A stretch of DNA of 13,860 nt from Phytoactinopolyspora endophytica (GTDB lineage Bacteria; Actinomycetota; Actinomycetes; Jiangellales; Jiangellaceae), in contig NZ_ML142851.1 in the NCBI RefSeq assembly GCF_004138495.1, positions 249,520-263,379 of the forward strand, read 5' to 3'. This document shows, piece after piece, positions 1,517 through 12,604 of the stretch. The notes beneath the pieces were generated by a model. The model saw only the letters and a list, made by a program, of their open reading frames with translations, ran no database searches and had not been told where the DNA came from. A program made the translations under genes and the position numbers. Each line of letters begins with the position of its first letter. The stretch's first letter is position 1.

Positions 1517-3535
1517 ATGAGACGACATCCACGCCAGAAGAGCACCAGGCGAGGCGTATTGGTCGCCGTATCGGGGGTGATCCTTGCTCTCGGGTTCGCC
1601 TCGGCCAGTGCTCATCCAGGTCACGACGACGGGATCGAGCCGCGGCCGGGACCGCATGCCGCTGGCCAGCCCGACGACGTGGTCAGCAAGAACAACATCC
1701 ACGACCAGCATGGACCGAGCAGCGGCCACCTGCCGGGTTCGGTGGAGAACGTCGAACTGATCAGCTCGCTACGGCTCACGTCGTTCGAGGAGGACATCTC
1801 TGACGTGTCGGCGCTGCAGACCGCGGACGGGCGATGGTTCGCCTACGTCGGCGACTGGGGCGCGCACTGTGAGACCGGTGGCGTCCGCATCGTCGATTTC
1901 ACCGATCCGGAGAACCCGACCCGGGCAGGAAACCTGAACAGCCCCGGCTTCGGCTACGTCACGGAGGGCCTGCAGGCGCTGAGCGTCGACACGGCGCAGT
2001 TCAGCGGCGATCTGCTCGTCGTCAGCAACGAATGGTGCCGCACCAGCGGCAATCCGAAGAACATGCCCGGCGGCATCACCCTCTGGGACATCAGCGAGCC
2101 CACCGAGCCGGAGAAGCTCGTCGAGGCGTTCGGCGACTTCGACCTGCACGGCAACCGGGCGAACGAGTCACACAGCGCGATCGCATGGGACACCGGCGAA
2201 GGCAACGCCTACGTCGCCGTCATCGACAACGAAGAGGCTGAAGACGTCGACCTGTTCGACATCACCGATCCGCGCAACCCGGTGCTCCTCGCCGAGACCG
2301 AGCTCCCGGGCGTGAACGTCAACGGCTTCGGCGACCTGAAGACGGCGCACGACTTCGACGTGCTGCAGTTCCCCGACGGCACCTGGCACCTCATGGTCTC
2401 GGACTGGGACGCCGGCTGGATCGACGTCGACGTCACCGACCCGTCCAATCCCGTCATTGTGGGTGACTTCGACTACGCGGAATGCGACCAGGTGATTCTG
2501 GAGGAACTCGGCGACTGCCTTCAGCCGGAGGGCAACGGCCACCAGGGTGAGTGGACCAGCGACGGATCCGTCTTCGTCGGAACCGATGAGGACTTCGCAC
2601 CGTTCCGCACCAGCGACCTGATGATCACCACGGGGGACCACCAGGGCGATTACCCGGCTGTGAGCGTGGGCGGCGCGCAGTCTCCCGCCAGCCTGGAAGA
2701 TCTCGAACTGGATGGGCCGGTGGTGTACGGCGGTTACGGCTGCCCGGACTCGGCACCGATACCGAGCCCCGAGGATGTGCCCGGATACCTGGACATGCTC
2801 GAAGAGGGCGACGAGCGGATCGTCGTCCTTCAGCGTGGTCCGGTCGGAGACCCGAGCGCTCCCGAGGATCCCTGCTTCCCAGGTGAGAAGGCACATGAAG
2901 CGGTGCTCGCCGGTTGGGACGCGGTGCTGTTCGTCCAGTCGCACTCCGGGCCCGAGGATCCGCCGTTCTGCGGGTCGGGCGCCTTCGTCGACGAGGTCGT
3001 GGGCGTGTGCACCAGCCACGAGGCATTCCACCGGCTGTTCGACTCGCCGCCGTTCACTCCGCCGTGGACCTACCCCGACGGGCCGGAGATCGGCGCCATC
3101 GGAGATCGCATCGAGGTCGTGGCCACGTTCGACGGCTGGGGCTACACCAGGGTGGTCGACACCGCGGACCCGAGCATGCCGACGGAGATCGCCCAGATCA
3201 CCATCCCGGAGACCATGGACCAGGACGTCGCCATCGGGTTCGGTGACCTCACCGTGCACGAGGTCGAGGTTCCGCGAGGCGACCCGAACGAAGGCGGTGC
3301 GAACGTCGACGACGACCTGCTGGCGTACTTCTCCTGGTACGCGGGTGGCTTCCGGGTGGTCGACATCAGCGATCCGGCGAATCCTGAGGAGGTCGGTCAT
3401 TACATCGACGACGACGGCAGCAACTTCTGGGGCGTCGCGTTGGCGACCGACCAGAACGGTGACCGCATCGTCTTGGCCAGCGATCGAGACTACGGATTGT
3501 TCATCTTCCGCTACACCGGAGCGTTGCCCGAGTAA
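1517..3535 (+). CDS. Secreted LVIVD-repeat protein with a protease-associated (PA) domain
   Basis: A 672-residue exported protein. The N-terminus is a classic signal peptide: a basic start, a hydrophobic core at about residues 14-28 and an AxA site (cleavage expected after A32), followed by a His/Asp-rich HPGHDDG start of the mature protein. LVIVD-type repeats, predicted to form a beta-propeller, recur through the protein. Examples are GGVRIVDFTDPENP, GGITLWDISEPTEP, VDLFDITDPRNP, WIDVDVTDPSNP and FRVVDISDPANP. A PA domain at about residues 390-510 (YGGYGCPDS, RIVVLQRGP, DAVLFVQSH, with several Cys) interrupts the repeats. No protease or hydrolase catalytic motif is visible, so a surface or secreted binding role is inferred. 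The start is set by GGGGAGG 6 nt upstream. There is no sortase signal or C-terminal membrane anchor. Confidence 0.88.
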   Translation: MRRHPRQKSTRRGVLVAVSGVILALGFASASAHPGHDDGIEPRPGPHAAGQPDDVVSKNNIHDQHGPSSGHLPGSVENVELISSLRLTSFEEDISDVSALQTADGRWFAYVGDWGAHCETGGVRIVDFTDPENPTRAGNLNSPGFGYVTEGLQALSVDTAQFSGDLLVVSNEWCRTSGNPKNMPGGITLWDISEPTEPEKLVEAFGDFDLHGNRANESHSAIAWDTGEGNAYVAVIDNEEAEDVDLFDITDPRNPVLLAETELPGVNVNGFGDLKTAHDFDVLQFPDGTWHLMVSDWDAGWIDVDVTDPSNPVIVGDFDYAECDQVILEELGDCLQPEGNGHQGEWTSDGSVFVGTDEDFAPFRTSDLMITTGDHQGDYPAVSVGGAQSPASLEDLELDGPVVYGGYGCPDSAPIPSPEDVPGYLDMLEEGDERIVVLQRGPVGDPSAPEDPCFPGEKAHEAVLAGWDAVLFVQSHSGPEDPPFCGSGAFVDEVVGVCTSHEAFHRLFDSPPFTPPWTYPDGPEIGAIGDRIEVVATFDGWGYTRVVDTADPSMPTEIAQITIPETMDQDVAIGFGDLTVHEVEVPRGDPNEGGANVDDDLLAYFSWYAGGFRVVDISDPANPEEVGHYIDDDGSNFWGVALATDQNGDRIVLASDRDYGLFIFRYTGALPE

Positions 3536-3580
3536 GCGGCCACCGCTCAGGTAGGTGATCGATACCTGGGTGAGTGGTAG

Positions 3581-3637
3581 ATGCCCGAGCAGGGGCGCTG
3601 ACTGCCGGGGAGAAGGCGTCCCTGCTCGCCCGGGCAT
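3581..3637. terminator. Large hairpin, probable bidirectional terminator
   Basis: GAGCAGGGGCGC (3587-3598) pairs with GCGTCCCTGCTC (3616-3627) with one G-T wobble. Below this the stem continues as ATGCCC (3581-3586) with GGGCAT (3632-3637) across a 4-nt bulge. The loop is 17 nt. It sits between the convergent LVIVD gene (ends 3535) and AraC-type gene (ends 3702). There is no U-tract on either side, which is common for actinomycete terminators. A smaller hairpin, CAGGTA/TACCTG, lies just before it at 3548-3568. Confidence 0.65.
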
Positions 3638-3701
3638 ACACGGGGCCGGGTGCTCGTGGCGATGGGCCCGCGGGCATTGCGGGTCGACGACGTGGCAGCG
3701 A

Positions 3702-4517
3702 TCAGGTGCGTGAGGTAGACGTCCGTAGCTCTGTCGGCGACAAGCCGGTGGTCTCCTTGATCTTCCGCGCGAAGTGGAAGCTGGTCTTGAACCCACACCG
3801 GTCGGCGATGGAGCCGATCGTGAGCCCGGTCGACGTCAAGAGTTCGACGCCGAGAGAGATGCGGCGGTCCCAGAGGTATCGAATCGGGGTCGTGTCCATG
3901 TGGGCACGGAACATCCGAACCAGATGAGCCGGCGTCACCGAAGCGGCTTGAGCGATGTCCGTAAGAGTGATCTGCCGCTCGACATGGGTGTGGATGAACA
4001 GCCGGGCATCCTCGATCGACTTCGGCAACGCCGCCGGAAGGTTCCTGAACTCGGCGATGAACCGCCACAGCAGCGCGGTCGCGAGCGCGTCGAGAAGCGC
4101 GCCGTCGGCGGTGAGTCTGGTCTGCTCCGTGACGACGGCCTCTCGCGCCAAATAGGTGAGGGCGGACGAGAGGGTCCTGGTGGGGCGGAGCGACTCGAGC
4201 CATGTGCGCATCTGCTCCGTCGCGTTCTCCATCCGGCCCCGGACGAGCGTCTCTCTGGTGCCGGCATGCTCGTCGAACCAGATTTCCTCCGTGTGGCCAG
4301 GCAACAGGAGACATATCTGGCCCGTCGGCACGTGACGCGGCTCGCCGTCGTCGATGCGCACGCTCATCGATCCGGAGTGGATCAGCATGAGCTGTATCTC
4401 TTGCTGGCGACGCGGTCCGATCCTGGAGCCGGCGGGCTGCACCATCTGTCGCGCCGTCGCGTCGACGACGCGGAGTCTGCGAGAGCGAGCATCAAGCTCA
4501 GACACAGAACGGTACAT
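3702..4517 (-). CDS. AraC-family transcriptional regulator of the divergent uptake operon
   Basis: A 271-residue regulator from ATG 4517. The N-terminal half is a cupin-like sensing domain (IQLMLIHSGSMSVRIDDGEP, PTGQICLLLPGHTEEIW). The C-terminal about 100 residues form the two-HTH AraC DNA-binding domain. The first HTH is at ITLTDIAQAASVTPAHLVRMF. The second is at LTIGSIADRCGFKTSFHFARKIKE and carries the usual GF-S--F-R/K signature. The frame stays open upstream to a GTG at 4580, but that would run 19 bp into the divergent oxidoreductase gene. ATG 4517 is preferred because TAACAT lies 7 nt upstream, fitting a leaderless transcript. Only 44 bp separate the two divergent starts, so it very likely controls the oxidoreductase/ABC operon and its own gene in response to a carbohydrate or derivative. 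The effector is unknown. Confidence 0.9.
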   Translation of the reverse strand: MYRSVSELDARSRRLRVVDATARQMVQPAGSRIGPRRQQEIQLMLIHSGSMSVRIDDGEPRHVPTGQICLLLPGHTEEIWFDEHAGTRETLVRGRMENATEQMRTWLESLRPTRTLSSALTYLAREAVVTEQTRLTADGALLDALATALLWRFIAEFRNLPAALPKSIEDARLFIHTHVERQITLTDIAQAASVTPAHLVRMFRAHMDTTPIRYLWDRRISLGVELLTSTGLTIGSIADRCGFKTSFHFARKIKETTGLSPTELRTSTSRT

Positions 4518-4561: not shown

Positions 4562-6181
4562 ATGAGTGAACTCGAGACACAGCTCCTGGTCGTAGGTGGC
4601 GGGGTCGGTGGCGTCGTGGCCGCCGTGACCGCGGCGCGCCGTGGAATCCATGTGACGCTCACCGAGCCCACCGACTGGCTGGGTGGTGTGCTGACCACCC
4701 AGGCGGTTCCGCCGGATGAGCACGTGTGGATAGAGCAGTTCGGATGCACGGCGACGTATCGGGCGTACCGTGACGCCGTCCGCGAGTACTACCGGCGGCA
4801 CTACCCGCTGACCGACGCCGCCCTGGAACGGCGGGCGTTCAACCCGGGCGGCGCCAAGGTCTCAGACCTGTGCCACGAACCGCGGGTCAGCCTCGCCGTG
4901 CTGGAAGCGATGGTGGCGCCGTTGCGAGGCTCGGGCCTGCTGCACATCCTGATGGAGCACGAGCCTGTCGCCGCGGAGACCGACGGTGATCACATCACGG
5001 CCGTGACTATGCGGAACGGAAGAACCAGTGCGTCGACGGTGATCTCTGCCCAGTGGGTCATCGACGCAAGCGAGACCGGCGAGCTGCTGCCGATGGCCGG
5101 TGTGGAGTACGTCTCGGGTGCTGAGGCCCATGCCGAGACGGGTGAGCCGCATGCCGCCGACGTCGCCGATCCGCTGAACATGCAGCCGGTGTCGGTGTGC
5201 TTCGCGCTCGATCACCGGTCGGATGAGGACCACACCATCGACAAGCCGGACGGCTACGAGCGGTTCAAGGCCGCTCGCGCCATCGACTGGCCGAATGGCC
5301 AGCTCTCGTTCTCCGCTCCGCATCCGAAGACTCGCCGACCGGTCGAGCATCAGTTCTGGCCGAATCCCGACGACGATCCGGCGACGATCAGGCCTGACTA
5401 TGCGGATCAGCGGGTGGGCTCGATGGATCGGAACCTGTGGACGTTCCGGCGGATCGCCGCCCGGGCGAACTTCCAGCCAGGGGCCTACCCGAGCGACATC
5501 ACCCTGGTGAACTGGCCACAGATCGACTATTGGGGTGGTCCGGTCTACGACCACCCCGACGCGGAGACACATATGCAGGCGGCACGGGCGTTGAGCCGCT
5601 CCTTCCTGTACTGGTTGCAGACGGAGGCGCCTCGTCCCGATGGCGGTACGGGCTGGCCAGGGCTGCGCCTGCGTGGCGACGTCGTCGGTGATACCGACGA
5701 TGGACTGGCGAAAGCGCCGTACATCAGGGAATCGCGCCGGATCCGCGCCGAGCACACGGTCGTGGAGCAGGAACTCTCCCTGGAGATGCGGGGCGCGGCC
5801 GGTGCTGTCTCCTACCGGGACAGCGTCGGCGTGGGGATGTACCGGATCGATCTGCATCCGTCCACCGGTGGCGACCCGTACATCGACATCGGTTGCTGCC
5901 CGTTCGAGCTGCCTCTGGGAGCGATGGTGCCGGTGCGCGTGGAGAACCTGCTTCCGGGCGCGAAGAACATCGGTACGACACACATCACGAACGGCGCGTA
6001 CCGCATGCCGCTGGTGGAGTGGAACATCGGCGAGGTCGCCGGCCACCTGGTCGCCTTCTGCACGCAGCGCAAGGTGCAGCCGCGGCAGGTCAGGGCCGAC
6101 GACGGGCTGCTGGCTGAGTTCACGCGCGAACTGGATGATGCCGGCGTCGAGCGGCACTGGCCGAGAGTCGCCGGGTACTGA
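4562..6181 (+). CDS. FAD-dependent oxidoreductase (FAD_oxidored-type family)
   Basis: A 539-residue cytoplasmic flavoenzyme. The N-terminus is a dinucleotide-binding Rossmann motif: VVGGGVGGVVAAVTAARRG at residues 10-28, with an acidic residue (E35) ending the second strand, then DWLGG. The C-terminus has the matching FAD-contact segment LLPGAKNIGTTHITNGAYRM, followed by VEWNIGEVAGHLVAF. This pattern fits the FAD_oxidored family, whose members often sit beside sugar transport genes; the substrate is not deducible. A Cys pair (DIGCC, about residue 445) lies near the C-terminal FAD region. The start is fixed at ATG 4562 because an in-frame stop (4544-4546) lies just upstream with no other start. 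It lacks a clear ribosome binding site. It is the first gene of an operon, 74 bp before the solute-binding protein gene. Confidence 0.88.
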   Translation: MSELETQLLVVGGGVGGVVAAVTAARRGIHVTLTEPTDWLGGVLTTQAVPPDEHVWIEQFGCTATYRAYRDAVREYYRRHYPLTDAALERRAFNPGGAKVSDLCHEPRVSLAVLEAMVAPLRGSGLLHILMEHEPVAAETDGDHITAVTMRNGRTSASTVISAQWVIDASETGELLPMAGVEYVSGAEAHAETGEPHAADVADPLNMQPVSVCFALDHRSDEDHTIDKPDGYERFKAARAIDWPNGQLSFSAPHPKTRRPVEHQFWPNPDDDPATIRPDYADQRVGSMDRNLWTFRRIAARANFQPGAYPSDITLVNWPQIDYWGGPVYDHPDAETHMQAARALSRSFLYWLQTEAPRPDGGTGWPGLRLRGDVVGDTDDGLAKAPYIRESRRIRAEHTVVEQELSLEMRGAAGAVSYRDSVGVGMYRIDLHPSTGGDPYIDIGCCPFELPLGAMVPVRVENLLPGAKNIGTTHITNGAYRMPLVEWNIGEVAGHLVAFCTQRKVQPRQVRADDGLLAEFTRELDDAGVERHWPRVAGY

Positions 6182-9653: not shown

Positions 9654-10355
9654 ATGTCGTGTATGGCGCGCCTCGTGCTCGGCGTCGACGCATGTAAGAG
9701 CGGCTGGGTAGGCATAAGCCTGAGGGCTGGTGACGTCCGCGGTTGGCATGCGCCGGTGATCGCCGAGCTCGTCGACCGCGTGGCGGCACATACGGTTCCG
9801 GACGCTGTCGCCATCGACATCCCCATCGGGCTGCCATCCGGGGGTGCGCGGCGGGCTGACGGTATGGCGCGTGAGTACCTGGGCGCGCGTCGTTCGTCAG
9901 TCTTCCCTACGCTCGTCCGCGCCGCGTATGAGGCAGAGACCTTCCGGGAGGCGTTCGACGCGCAGGTGGCAGCCACGGGGAAAGGCATGTCGCAGCAGGC
10001 GTGGGGGCTGCGCTACAAGGAGCTGGACGTCGACACATGGCTGGAACGGCCGAGTGCCGTCAGCGTCGTCGTGGAGTGTCACCCGGAAGTGTCATTCGCG
10101 GCGATGAACGGGGGCACAGCGGTGCCGCACTCGAAGAAGACCTGGTCAGGGCAAGCGCGTCGTATGGAGCTCTTGGCCGCGGAGGGGATCGTCGTCCCAT
10201 CCGAGCTCGGCGACGTGGGGCGGGTTCCTGCAGACGACATCCTTGACGCTGCCGCGGCAGCGTGGACAGCCCGAAGAGTGGCGGAGGGGCGAGCTGTGTC
10301 GCTTCCAGAGGAGCCCGAGCAATTCGGCAGCCGTCGGGCCGCGATCATGTACTGA
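9654..10355 (+). CDS. DUF429 family protein (RNase H-like fold predicted)
   Basis: A 233-residue protein matching the DUF429 pattern. It begins LVLGVDACKSGWVGISL, a beta-strand with an early Asp followed by Gly-Trp, as in RNase H-like folds. Next come VAIDIPIGLPSGGARRAD, then RRSSVFPTLVRAAYEA, VVVECHPEVSFAAMNGG and a late DDILDAAAAAWTARR. The acidic residues at D12 and in AIDIP, with the acidic DD-D near the C-terminus, are consistent with a metal-binding active site. The family is often annotated as a predicted nuclease, but its activity is not established. The start may be ATG 9654 or ATG 9663; neither has a strong ribosome binding site. It appears to be a single-gene unit between the transporter operon and the phosphotransferase. 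Confidence 0.85.
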   Translation: MSCMARLVLGVDACKSGWVGISLRAGDVRGWHAPVIAELVDRVAAHTVPDAVAIDIPIGLPSGGARRADGMAREYLGARRSSVFPTLVRAAYEAETFREAFDAQVAATGKGMSQQAWGLRYKELDVDTWLERPSAVSVVVECHPEVSFAAMNGGTAVPHSKKTWSGQARRMELLAAEGIVVPSELGDVGRVPADDILDAAAAAWTARRVAEGRAVSLPEEPEQFGSRRAAIMY

Positions 10356-10397
10356 AACGGCTACGGCTTGGGTAGGGCACTTTCACCTGCAGTTTTG

Positions 10398-10427
10398 CAA
10401 TAGATGATTGATATCGCTCGTCTATTG
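10398..10427. promoter_or_regulatory. Palindromic element, copy 1 (orphan operator/promoter)
   Basis: Arms CAATAGATGA and TCGTCTATTG (one mismatch, 10-bp spacer TTGATATCGC) form a dyad. The region 10385-10430 is about 80% identical to 11451-11496, which stands directly before the MNT gene. The spacer contains TTGATA, a good -35-like hexamer. Copy 1 has no recognisable gene downstream on the plus strand and would read antisense into the aph gene. It also fills most of the otherwise empty 10356-10481 gap. Confidence 0.55.
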
Positions 10428-11294: not shown

Positions 11295-11341
11295 AGGCGA
11301 CGATCTTCCCAGACGCGCATTGCCTGTCGCGAACGAGTTTT

Positions 11342-11402
11342 TGCGGATCTGGAGGGCCCAATCCTGCGGATTTGGAGGGCCCAATCCTGCGGATCTGGAG
11401 GG
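11342..11402. repeat. 23-bp tandem direct repeat upstream of aph
   Basis: Two full units (11342-11364 and 11365-11387) differ at one base (C/T), followed by a 15-bp partial third unit (11388-11402). Each full unit contains TGCGGATYTGGAGGGCCCAA, including the palindrome GGGCCC. The array ends 48 bp before the aph start, so it lies in its leader or promoter zone. It belongs to no gene. Confidence 0.85.
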
Positions 11403-11463
11403 TCGGCGTCGGGATGTTGATGAAGTTGGGTAGGTGAGGGGAACGAGGTGACCTGCTAGTTTG

Positions 11464-11493
11464 CAATAAACGATTGATATTGCTCGTTTGTTG
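11464..11493. promoter_or_regulatory. Palindromic operator/promoter, copy 2, in front of the MNT gene
   Basis: Arms CAATAAACGA and TCGTTTGTTG (one mismatch) flank TTGATATTGC. Overlapping half-sites GCAATA (11463), TATTGC (11478) and GCGATA (11495) give three alternating GCRATA boxes. TTGATA (11474-11479) fits a -35. A weak -10 (around GATACAT, 11497-11503) would place the transcript start at or near ATG 11510. A repressor bound here would block the promoter, which fits autoregulation by the winged-helix protein encoded next. Confidence 0.55.
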
Positions 11494-11509
11494 AGCGATA
11501 CATACTCGT

Positions 11510-12100
11510 ATGAGAGCTGCCGAGCCTCCGTTGCTGCCGATCTTGCGGTCTGCCGTGGTCGGTAAAGTCATTGCGCTGCTGGCGATGGACGTGGAACGGT
11601 GGTGGACGCTGGACGAGATCACTGCACGGGTGGGTGGGGCATATCCGACGGTGTCACGCGAGGTCCGGTGACTTCAGCAGGTGCGGTTGGTCGAGGTAGA
11701 AGAGATGGGTCGGACGAAACGGGTTCGGCTGGACACATCCAACCCGTTGCACAGTCCTCTCGCCGAGCTCATGATCCGCTCCTTTGGCCCTGTAGTCGTC
11801 ATAGGTGAGGAGTTCGAGGCGTTGGATAACGTCACTCAAGTCTCGATCTACGGATCTTGGGCGGCGCGCTACTCAGGCGAGCAGGGCCCCACACCTAATG
11901 ACATTGATGTGCTTGTGCTCGGCAGGCCGGACCGTGATGAGATCTATGAGGCGGCACGTCGGTCGGAGCGACGGTTGGGTGTCGCGGTCAACACAACCAT
12001 CCGAACGCCCGAAGACTGGTCACGAGCGGAAGACTCGTTCACCCGTCAGGTGAAGACATCGCCGATGGTGACGGCCCGGCCCCGTGAGGAGGTTGGCTGA
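11510..12100 (+). pseudogene. Winged-helix + MNT nucleotidyltransferase (MntA-like antitoxin), interrupted by in-frame TGA
   Basis: Read through, this frame encodes 196 codons of a winged-helix/nucleotidyltransferase protein known in actinobacteria. The N-terminal HTH contains WWTLDEITARVGGAYPTVSREVR. The wing is VRLVEVEEMGRTKRVRLDT. The MNT domain is VSIYGSWAARYSGEQ, then PNDIDVLVLG, with the GS...DxD active-site signature intact. Codon 54 (11669-11671) is TGA, just after REVR; a single C-to-T change from CGA (Arg) explains it. No frameshift accompanies it. GAGG (11693-11696) lies 8 nt before an in-frame ATG at 11705, so a stand-alone MNT domain might still be made. The role expected of the intact protein is antitoxin (AMP transfer to the HEPN toxin) plus autorepressor. 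Alternatives are a sequencing error or a genuine split gene. Confidence 0.82.
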
Positions 12101-12322
12101 TGCGCTGGGCGAAAGGCGCAGACCGGATCGAAACGTTGCTCCGCGACAACGAGCTCCAGAATGTGTGTGGCGGTACTGAGGCAGCCAGAGGACTAGCTCG
12201 ACATGGCTGAACAGCATGTGAAGGCTGCCAAGGCGGCAGTAGCTGTCGACCACGAGGGTGCCTACGCGCTGGCGTACGACGCGACCCGCAAGTCCCAGGG
12301 CTACGGCGACGGCGTTGTGTAG
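12100..12322 (+). pseudogene. HEPN-domain (HepT-like toxin) remnant, frameshifted and truncated
   Basis: This gene begins at ATG 12100, overlapping the MNT stop by one base (TGATG), behind a strong AGGAGG (12087-12092). The first frame reads MRWAKGADRIETLLRDNELQ and stops at 12208-12210. From about 12203 the sequence continues in the +1 frame as MAEQHVKAAKAAVAVDHEG, then AYALAYDATRKS, ending at TAG 12320-12322. Both parts match the order of an actinobacterial HEPN protein: the MRW start, then the AxxH helix, then the GAYALAYDAxRK helix. One or two bases were therefore gained or lost near 12195-12203. The C-terminal half, where the RX4-6H nuclease motif should lie, is missing. The original role would be ribonuclease toxin of the pair. 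Family assignment is from remembered pattern. Confidence 0.75.
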
Positions 12323-12604
12323 GTCGTCGGTCGCTCCGATGTCCAGTGTGTCTCGGCCTCTTCCGGGCCGAGCGGCTGGCTGCAGCCGGCGGGTGCCTGT
12401 GGAGCGATTAGCCTCCGGGGTTTCAGGCTCTCGGCGAGGACGTCGGCACGGATCGCGAGAACGACGTCTTCTCAGCGTGGCACAGGACGGGCGCCTCGGA
12501 TAGACCCGAACGACGGCGGGGGTGGCGCCGGCTCGGTCGGCGAATCGCAGAACCGCGTGACCGGTGGCGGGCACGAGACGATCACTGTGTTTGAATCGAT
12601 CGGT
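12323..12604. other. Intergenic stretch after the HEPN remnant
   Basis: I find no recognisable gene, RNA or repeat in this 282-bp stretch. No convincing continuation of the HEPN gene is visible in the plus-strand frames, so its 3' end appears deleted. The frame of the following esterase is open through the last hundred-odd bases (GTG codons at 12557 and 12587), which leaves the esterase start slightly uncertain. Confidence 0.5.

Follow-up and report, generated by a model that had tools for sequence, protein, structure and literature searches.

The window, as we call the whole stretch of 13,860 nucleotides from Phytoactinopolyspora endophytica analysed here, contains a wHTH-MNT antitoxin gene (11510–12100, plus strand) that is interrupted by a stop codon in its own frame, and the question it raises is what has become of such a gene and of the toxin that it should accompany. 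In translation, 53 codons lead up to a TGA at 11669–11671, after which the frame is open until a second TGA at 12098–12100. With an X placed at the internal stop, the resulting 196-residue query retrieved 1158 homologues at E <= 1e-5 from the protein database, the top one with 69% identity at 96% query coverage, and matched the PADLOC family PDC-M05A (PDLC04370) with E 1.8e-45; the closest homologue, P0002, has the source label Jiangellaceae. The halves also match PDC-M05A separately: the 5' piece (11510–11671, plus strand), the first 53 codons of the wHTH domain up to the TGA, corresponds to positions 1–51 (E 7.1e-6 for 11510–11668), and the 3' piece (11672–12100, plus strand), consisting of the remaining wing and the MNT domain up to the stop at 12098–12100, corresponds to positions 61–186 (E 9.3e-35 for 11672–12097). 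Given the many homologues and the matches of both halves, the frame is more than a product of chance.

In an alignment of the window antitoxin with 32 homologues (A1), the homologues are continuous proteins of about 195 amino acids, and the column of the TGA is nearly invariant, one sense residue being common to 29 of the 31 full-length homologues; because of this conservation, we take the intact gene to read through the interrupted column. The GS and DxD of the MNT domain are present in the window gene and invariant across the homologues. A sequence-only reading of this DNA had described one in-frame TGA with an intact frame on both sides, a wHTH upstream and a wing and MNT domain with GS and DxD downstream, and had expected one conserved residue at the interrupted column, and in all of this, its coordinates included, the translation, the profile matches and the homologues bear it out. 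Its alternative, an ancestral split gene with homologues all ending at the TGA beside a separate MNT gene, is not supported, as all 32 homologues in A1 are uninterrupted across the column. The free MNT half, used as a query, matched 232 proteins, of which 120 were listed, and among 10 short ones aligned about five had no wHTH (P0122, P0125, P0141, P0143 and P0184); these could represent genuine free MNTs, fragments of genes or proteins cut off by a contig end. Individually, the domains of the window copy stay below the Pfam cut-offs (HVO_A0114-type wHTH, 24.0 bits; NTP_transf_2, 16.5 bits), and P0002 is above the cut-off for MarR_2. Megablast against plasmids and an initial scan of genome contigs found no DNA relatives of the window, scans of 11300–12600 for promoters, terminators and Rfam families gave no matches, and a sequence search of solved structures gave marginal matches only.

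What the sequence-only reading did not mention is a broken HEPN toxin gene directly downstream (12100–12295). The gene begins at 12100 with an ATG overlapping the MNT stop, changes frame near 12190 and loses its homology near 12295, giving way to a piece of a protease gene in antisense orientation. Against a HEPN profile of 152 positions, built from 49 open downstream genes of relatives, the first piece of the remnant (12100–12210, plus strand) matches positions 2–36 at 12100–12204 before running into a stop (E 3e-5 in a small set), and the second piece (12188–12295, plus strand), in another frame and with one stop, matches positions 31–66 (E 9e-8 in a small set); positions 67–152 are absent from the window. 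The second piece was also weakly matched in whole-genome searches with the HEPN proteins of relatives (E 0.022 and E 0.017), and neither piece, each being too short, has a match in Pfam or PADLOC. In the C-terminal half of 30 HEPN relatives (alignment A3), the invariant residues surround a GGH segment or fall in the motif RRRRNxxEY, and both segments are missing from the window remnant.

The 3' end of the HEPN gene is replaced by the trypsin-like protease fragment (12294–12504, minus strand), which is 87% identical at 12294–12457 and 82% at 12460–12504 to locus L130 of the same-genus genome G002 (87% across 165 aligned columns) and 71–77% identical to the window genome's own downstream protease gene (Trypsin_2, E 8e-19). 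The junction would be accounted for most simply by one deletion with one end in the HEPN gene and the other in the protease gene, which is oriented the opposite way. The G002 gene was considered as an intact copy of the protease and rejected, its coding being spread over two overlapping frames, one of them with a zinc ribbon only in Pfam. An APH-family gene lies nearby in G002, and a two-gene antitoxin locus was not found in that genome. The surroundings also hold duplicated tails of neighbouring genes (the end of a DUF429 gene, the protease and another gene) at 10251–10392 of the window and at 5677–6000 of L004; these are scattered fragments with 73–89% identity, and the region is thus littered with gene remains. 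Elsewhere in the window, two similar genes for a 130-aa protein stand in tandem on the minus strand (419–811 and 847–1239), the copy at 847–1239 having no Pfam family.

The searches of the window genome found three relatives, namely the window locus and one locus each on contigs C6 and C1. The C6 copy (L010, G000:C6:313613–314244) is a second two-gene copy in which both genes are broken: the wHTH loses its frame past residue 37 or so, and the HEPN homology stops after about 49 residues; the MNT part is still an open frame. Its upstream palindrome, ACGTTCTCTATAAA...TTTATAGAGAACGT, is still perfect. The C1 relative (L011, G000:C1:732145–733239) is a single open frame in which we distinguished by eye an XRE-type HTH (PF13560, barely over the cut-off), a wHTH and two parts resembling MNT and HEPN, the first lacking DxD and the second RRRRNxxEY. 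Of the 22 family genomes searched, 17 have a single fusion of this type (L011, L006–L009, L017–L028), and these fusions look like a former toxin-antitoxin pair that may have been turned into a vertically kept regulator. Neither the genome searches nor the class profile searches found an intact separate HEPN partner in the window genome.

These observations are best explained, and with considerable assurance on our part, if the window locus is what is left of a PDC-M05-type pair, the toxin most likely having been lost first and the stop in the MNT gene tolerated afterwards. In the ancestral pair, a HEPN toxin gene would have stood behind a wHTH-MNT antitoxin gene; the toxin would have been destroyed by the deletion into the protease gene, the antitoxin would then no longer have been needed, and the in-frame stop could have arisen at no cost. 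We favour this explanation because the HEPN gene is split between two frames and truncated, because it ends in the protease junction, because L010 is also broken in both genes and because an intact partner was not found. Against it stands that one genome cannot show the order of events at the window locus, that the HEPN pieces of the window lack Pfam and PADLOC matches, and that the MNT half, being no further diverged than its counterparts in relatives, fits a late stop or continued selection alike; the missing association of damage in the 77-locus sample below and the exception L082 count against it as well. The earlier verdict of recent decay suits the little-changed MNT half only and fails for the locus, where the toxin gene has a broken frame, is cut short and runs into part of another gene. 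Likewise, the emphasis of that reading on a surviving antitoxin activity finds no support since the partner toxin is gone, and such an activity would have no object in this genome. Relaxed constraint on the window antitoxin was considered as a separate line of argument, and the column deviations and branch comparison were not decisive: in a close set, the window departs from 10 of 90 conserved columns, compared with 0–4 in each of 18 others, and its branch is long; in a set of 33 sequences, the departures number 4 among 25 conserved columns for the wHTH and 1 among 43 for the MNT half.

By itself, a single locus like this is a case of ordinary pseudogenisation, and it is useful mainly since the order of loss recurs in its relatives, the two samples giving ratios of 10 to 0 (42 loci) and 24 to 1 (77 loci) that support the toxin-first order. 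For the first, we screened 393 genomes of the class with two alignments, one of MNT (28 rows) and one of HEPN (30 rows); with eight or nine candidates scored per genome, some loci may be missed. MNT matches were found in 48 of the 393 genomes. With 17 fused loci, G123 (antitoxin at a contig end) and two MNT-less HEPN fragments (G368) left out, 42 loci remained and were classed by hand from profile coverage and stops, 20 regions being fetched and read. Both genes were intact at 24 loci (three read, the rest classed from search rows); the MNT gene was intact and the HEPN gene broken or not found at 10 (all read; G330 and G128:C3 doubtful); both were broken, or the HEPN gene not found beside a broken MNT gene, at eight (all read); and a broken MNT gene beside an intact HEPN gene was seen at none. 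The Fisher test gives P 3.7e-4 as classed, 1.1e-4 with the two doubtful loci counted as intact and 0.0021 without the two loci of the window genome. Apparent internal stops in G342, G128:C3 and G324:C25 were rejected on reading, the stops being terminal or near-terminal, and the loci were reclassified.

The second sample, the best 80 of 158 loci by MNT similarity and biased to intact MNT genes, lost three loci to contig ends; among the 77 scored, both genes were intact in 51, only the HEPN gene was damaged in 24, only the MNT gene in one and both in one. Damage to the two genes was not significantly associated in this set (Fisher P 0.55), and the 24 to 1 split of the cases with one broken gene has P 1.5e-6. 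The one exception, L082 from an Acidimicrobiaceae MAG (about 3001–3959), combines a shortened wHTH with an intact MNT domain and an intact HEPN gene and is the only damaged antitoxin gene that we saw beside a whole HEPN; it hints that the MNT domain alone may be sufficient.

The upstream sequences offer a view of how the intact pairs might be controlled. The window has an operator-like inverted repeat before the antitoxin gene (11464–11493; 10-nt arms, 10-nt spacer), whose score of 7 against a shuffle mean of 5.05 is modest alone. Inverted repeats over the promoter or start are present in many relatives, with a mean score of 7.04 compared with 4.82 for shuffled sequences among the 79 scored, and 33 of the 79 exceed their own shuffle mean by more than 2. 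In many of the relatives among L038–L105 (L079 and L104, for example, the arm of L079 being 18 nt long and perfect), the start codon lies within one arm of a palindrome, which suggests an operator over the start. A solitary operator-like repeat, with 25 of 28 bases like those of the antitoxin-gene repeat, occurs in the window at 10398–10427, on the 3' side of an APH-family gene; no antitoxin gene lies directly behind it, and a related repeat is found at the same place in G002. From these patterns we infer that, in intact relatives, the wHTH part would bind a palindrome over the promoter and the gene would thereby regulate itself; the MNT part would neutralise HEPN, for which nucleotidylation, as in HepT/MntA, is a possible means. 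At the window locus, DNA binding and autoregulation have likely been lost, with the operator-like palindrome still there, and neither regulation nor neutralisation is expected to operate now.

Of the competing explanations, the one that survives best, albeit as an improbable one, is that the locus was functionally remodelled: after the loss of the toxin, the wHTH half would have been discarded, and selection would now maintain a free MNT domain starting at ATG 11705, whether as an orphan nucleotidyltransferase or as a safeguard against incoming HEPN toxins. The GAGG at 11693–11696 and the ATG at 11705, eight bases on, are present as the sequence-only reading had seen, and the database gene call for the window contig begins at that ATG (P0003, 131 aa; 11705–12100, plus strand). 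The free product that the sequence-only reading proposed is modelled as a complete fold, similar to solved MNT antitoxins (mean pLDDT 85.9, pTM 0.77; residues 3–9 below 50), but its start is not conserved, methionine being found at this position in none of the 32 homologues and a start codon with an SD-like motif in 2 of 69 scorable relatives (80 in all). A free MNT domain may be retained. Among the further points for remodelling, the ATG with GAGG eight bases upstream is found only in the window; yet both lie within codons that the homologues also have in another form, V or I standing at the ATG in 31 of 32. The window branch is longer in the wHTH than in the MNT half (0.377 vs 0.154; relative ratio 2.5), but the ratio spans 0.58–6.73 in the bootstrap, does not exceed 1 in 12.5% of 40 replicates and is higher in 4 of the other 31 sequences. 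On C6, too, the wHTH is broken and the MNT frame open, L082 keeps its HEPN with a shortened wHTH, and 7 of the 10 damaged antitoxin genes in both samples, judged by eye, have a wHTH lesion and an open MNT frame (one-sided P 0.048 against the length share); the search, however, favours the better conserved MNT domain, so that wHTH lesions are easier to see. No partner toxin was found. A generalised form, in which wHTH-MNT/HEPN loci would follow a fixed route of decay from the death of HEPN through the shedding of the DNA-binding half to a selected free MNT that is not autoregulated, seems to us a shade less probable still; if it were true, the window genome would carry two free-MNT loci, that of the window and that on C6.

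That the TGA is an error of sequencing or assembly and the antitoxin gene intact is very unlikely: the genome is a draft of 64 contigs, a single base decides the matter and the database has only one sequence of the P0003 protein, but the adjacent HEPN gene has several independent lesions, for which one wrong base is insufficient. Readthrough or recoding of the TGA into a full-length protein, suggested by the frame continuing perfectly past the stop, is hardly credible, as the homologues in A1 run through the column uninterrupted and have a sense residue there, 11300–12600 contains no Rfam element and a dead partner leaves little reason to keep recoding.

The decayed pair also finds its place among known systems. 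PDC-M05, a PADLOC phage-defence candidate, consists of a nucleotidyltransferase (M05A) and a HEPN protein (M05B) in the same gene order as the window locus; two HEPN relatives tested match PDC-M05B (E 5.9e-18 and 8.2e-12) and exceed the PF05168 cut-off of 22 (29.0 and 33.2 bits). The window differs in having both genes broken and HEPN pieces without a PADLOC match and, judged by these profile matches, is a decayed relative of PDC-M05 without an intact M05B and not a working member; in the portion of PMC12988326 consulted, the antiviral role of PDC-M05 is unconfirmed. Class I HEPN/MNT modules, defined in the relevant part of PMC7641770 by GSX10DXD in MNT and RX4HXY in HEPN and represented by HepT/MntA of Shewanella oneidensis (SO_3166/SO_3165), differ from the window family in three respects: the window MNT has the spacing GS-x14-DxD, the 30 HEPN relatives in A3 carry RRRRNxxEY in place of RX4HXY (a region missing in the window), and a wHTH is fused to the MNT. 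The family corresponds to Class II, where a PF05168 HEPN stands beside an MNT (same part of PMC7641770); RX4HXY was not found in the A3 relatives, in which one tyrosine is invariant, and the differences are the N-terminal wHTH of the MNT and, for the window locus, that it is dead. HEPN is the toxin and MNT the antitoxin in the view given in the sections seen of PMC3710099, the roles having been reversed in those of the earlier PMC2701414, and no biochemical study of Class II was known to the authors of PMC7641770 in 2020. Our comparison bears on the question left there, whether Class II modules are toxin-antitoxin pairs: no locus of the class sample combined a broken antitoxin with an intact toxin, whereas ten showed the opposite, as one would expect if the two genes encode an antidote and its toxin.
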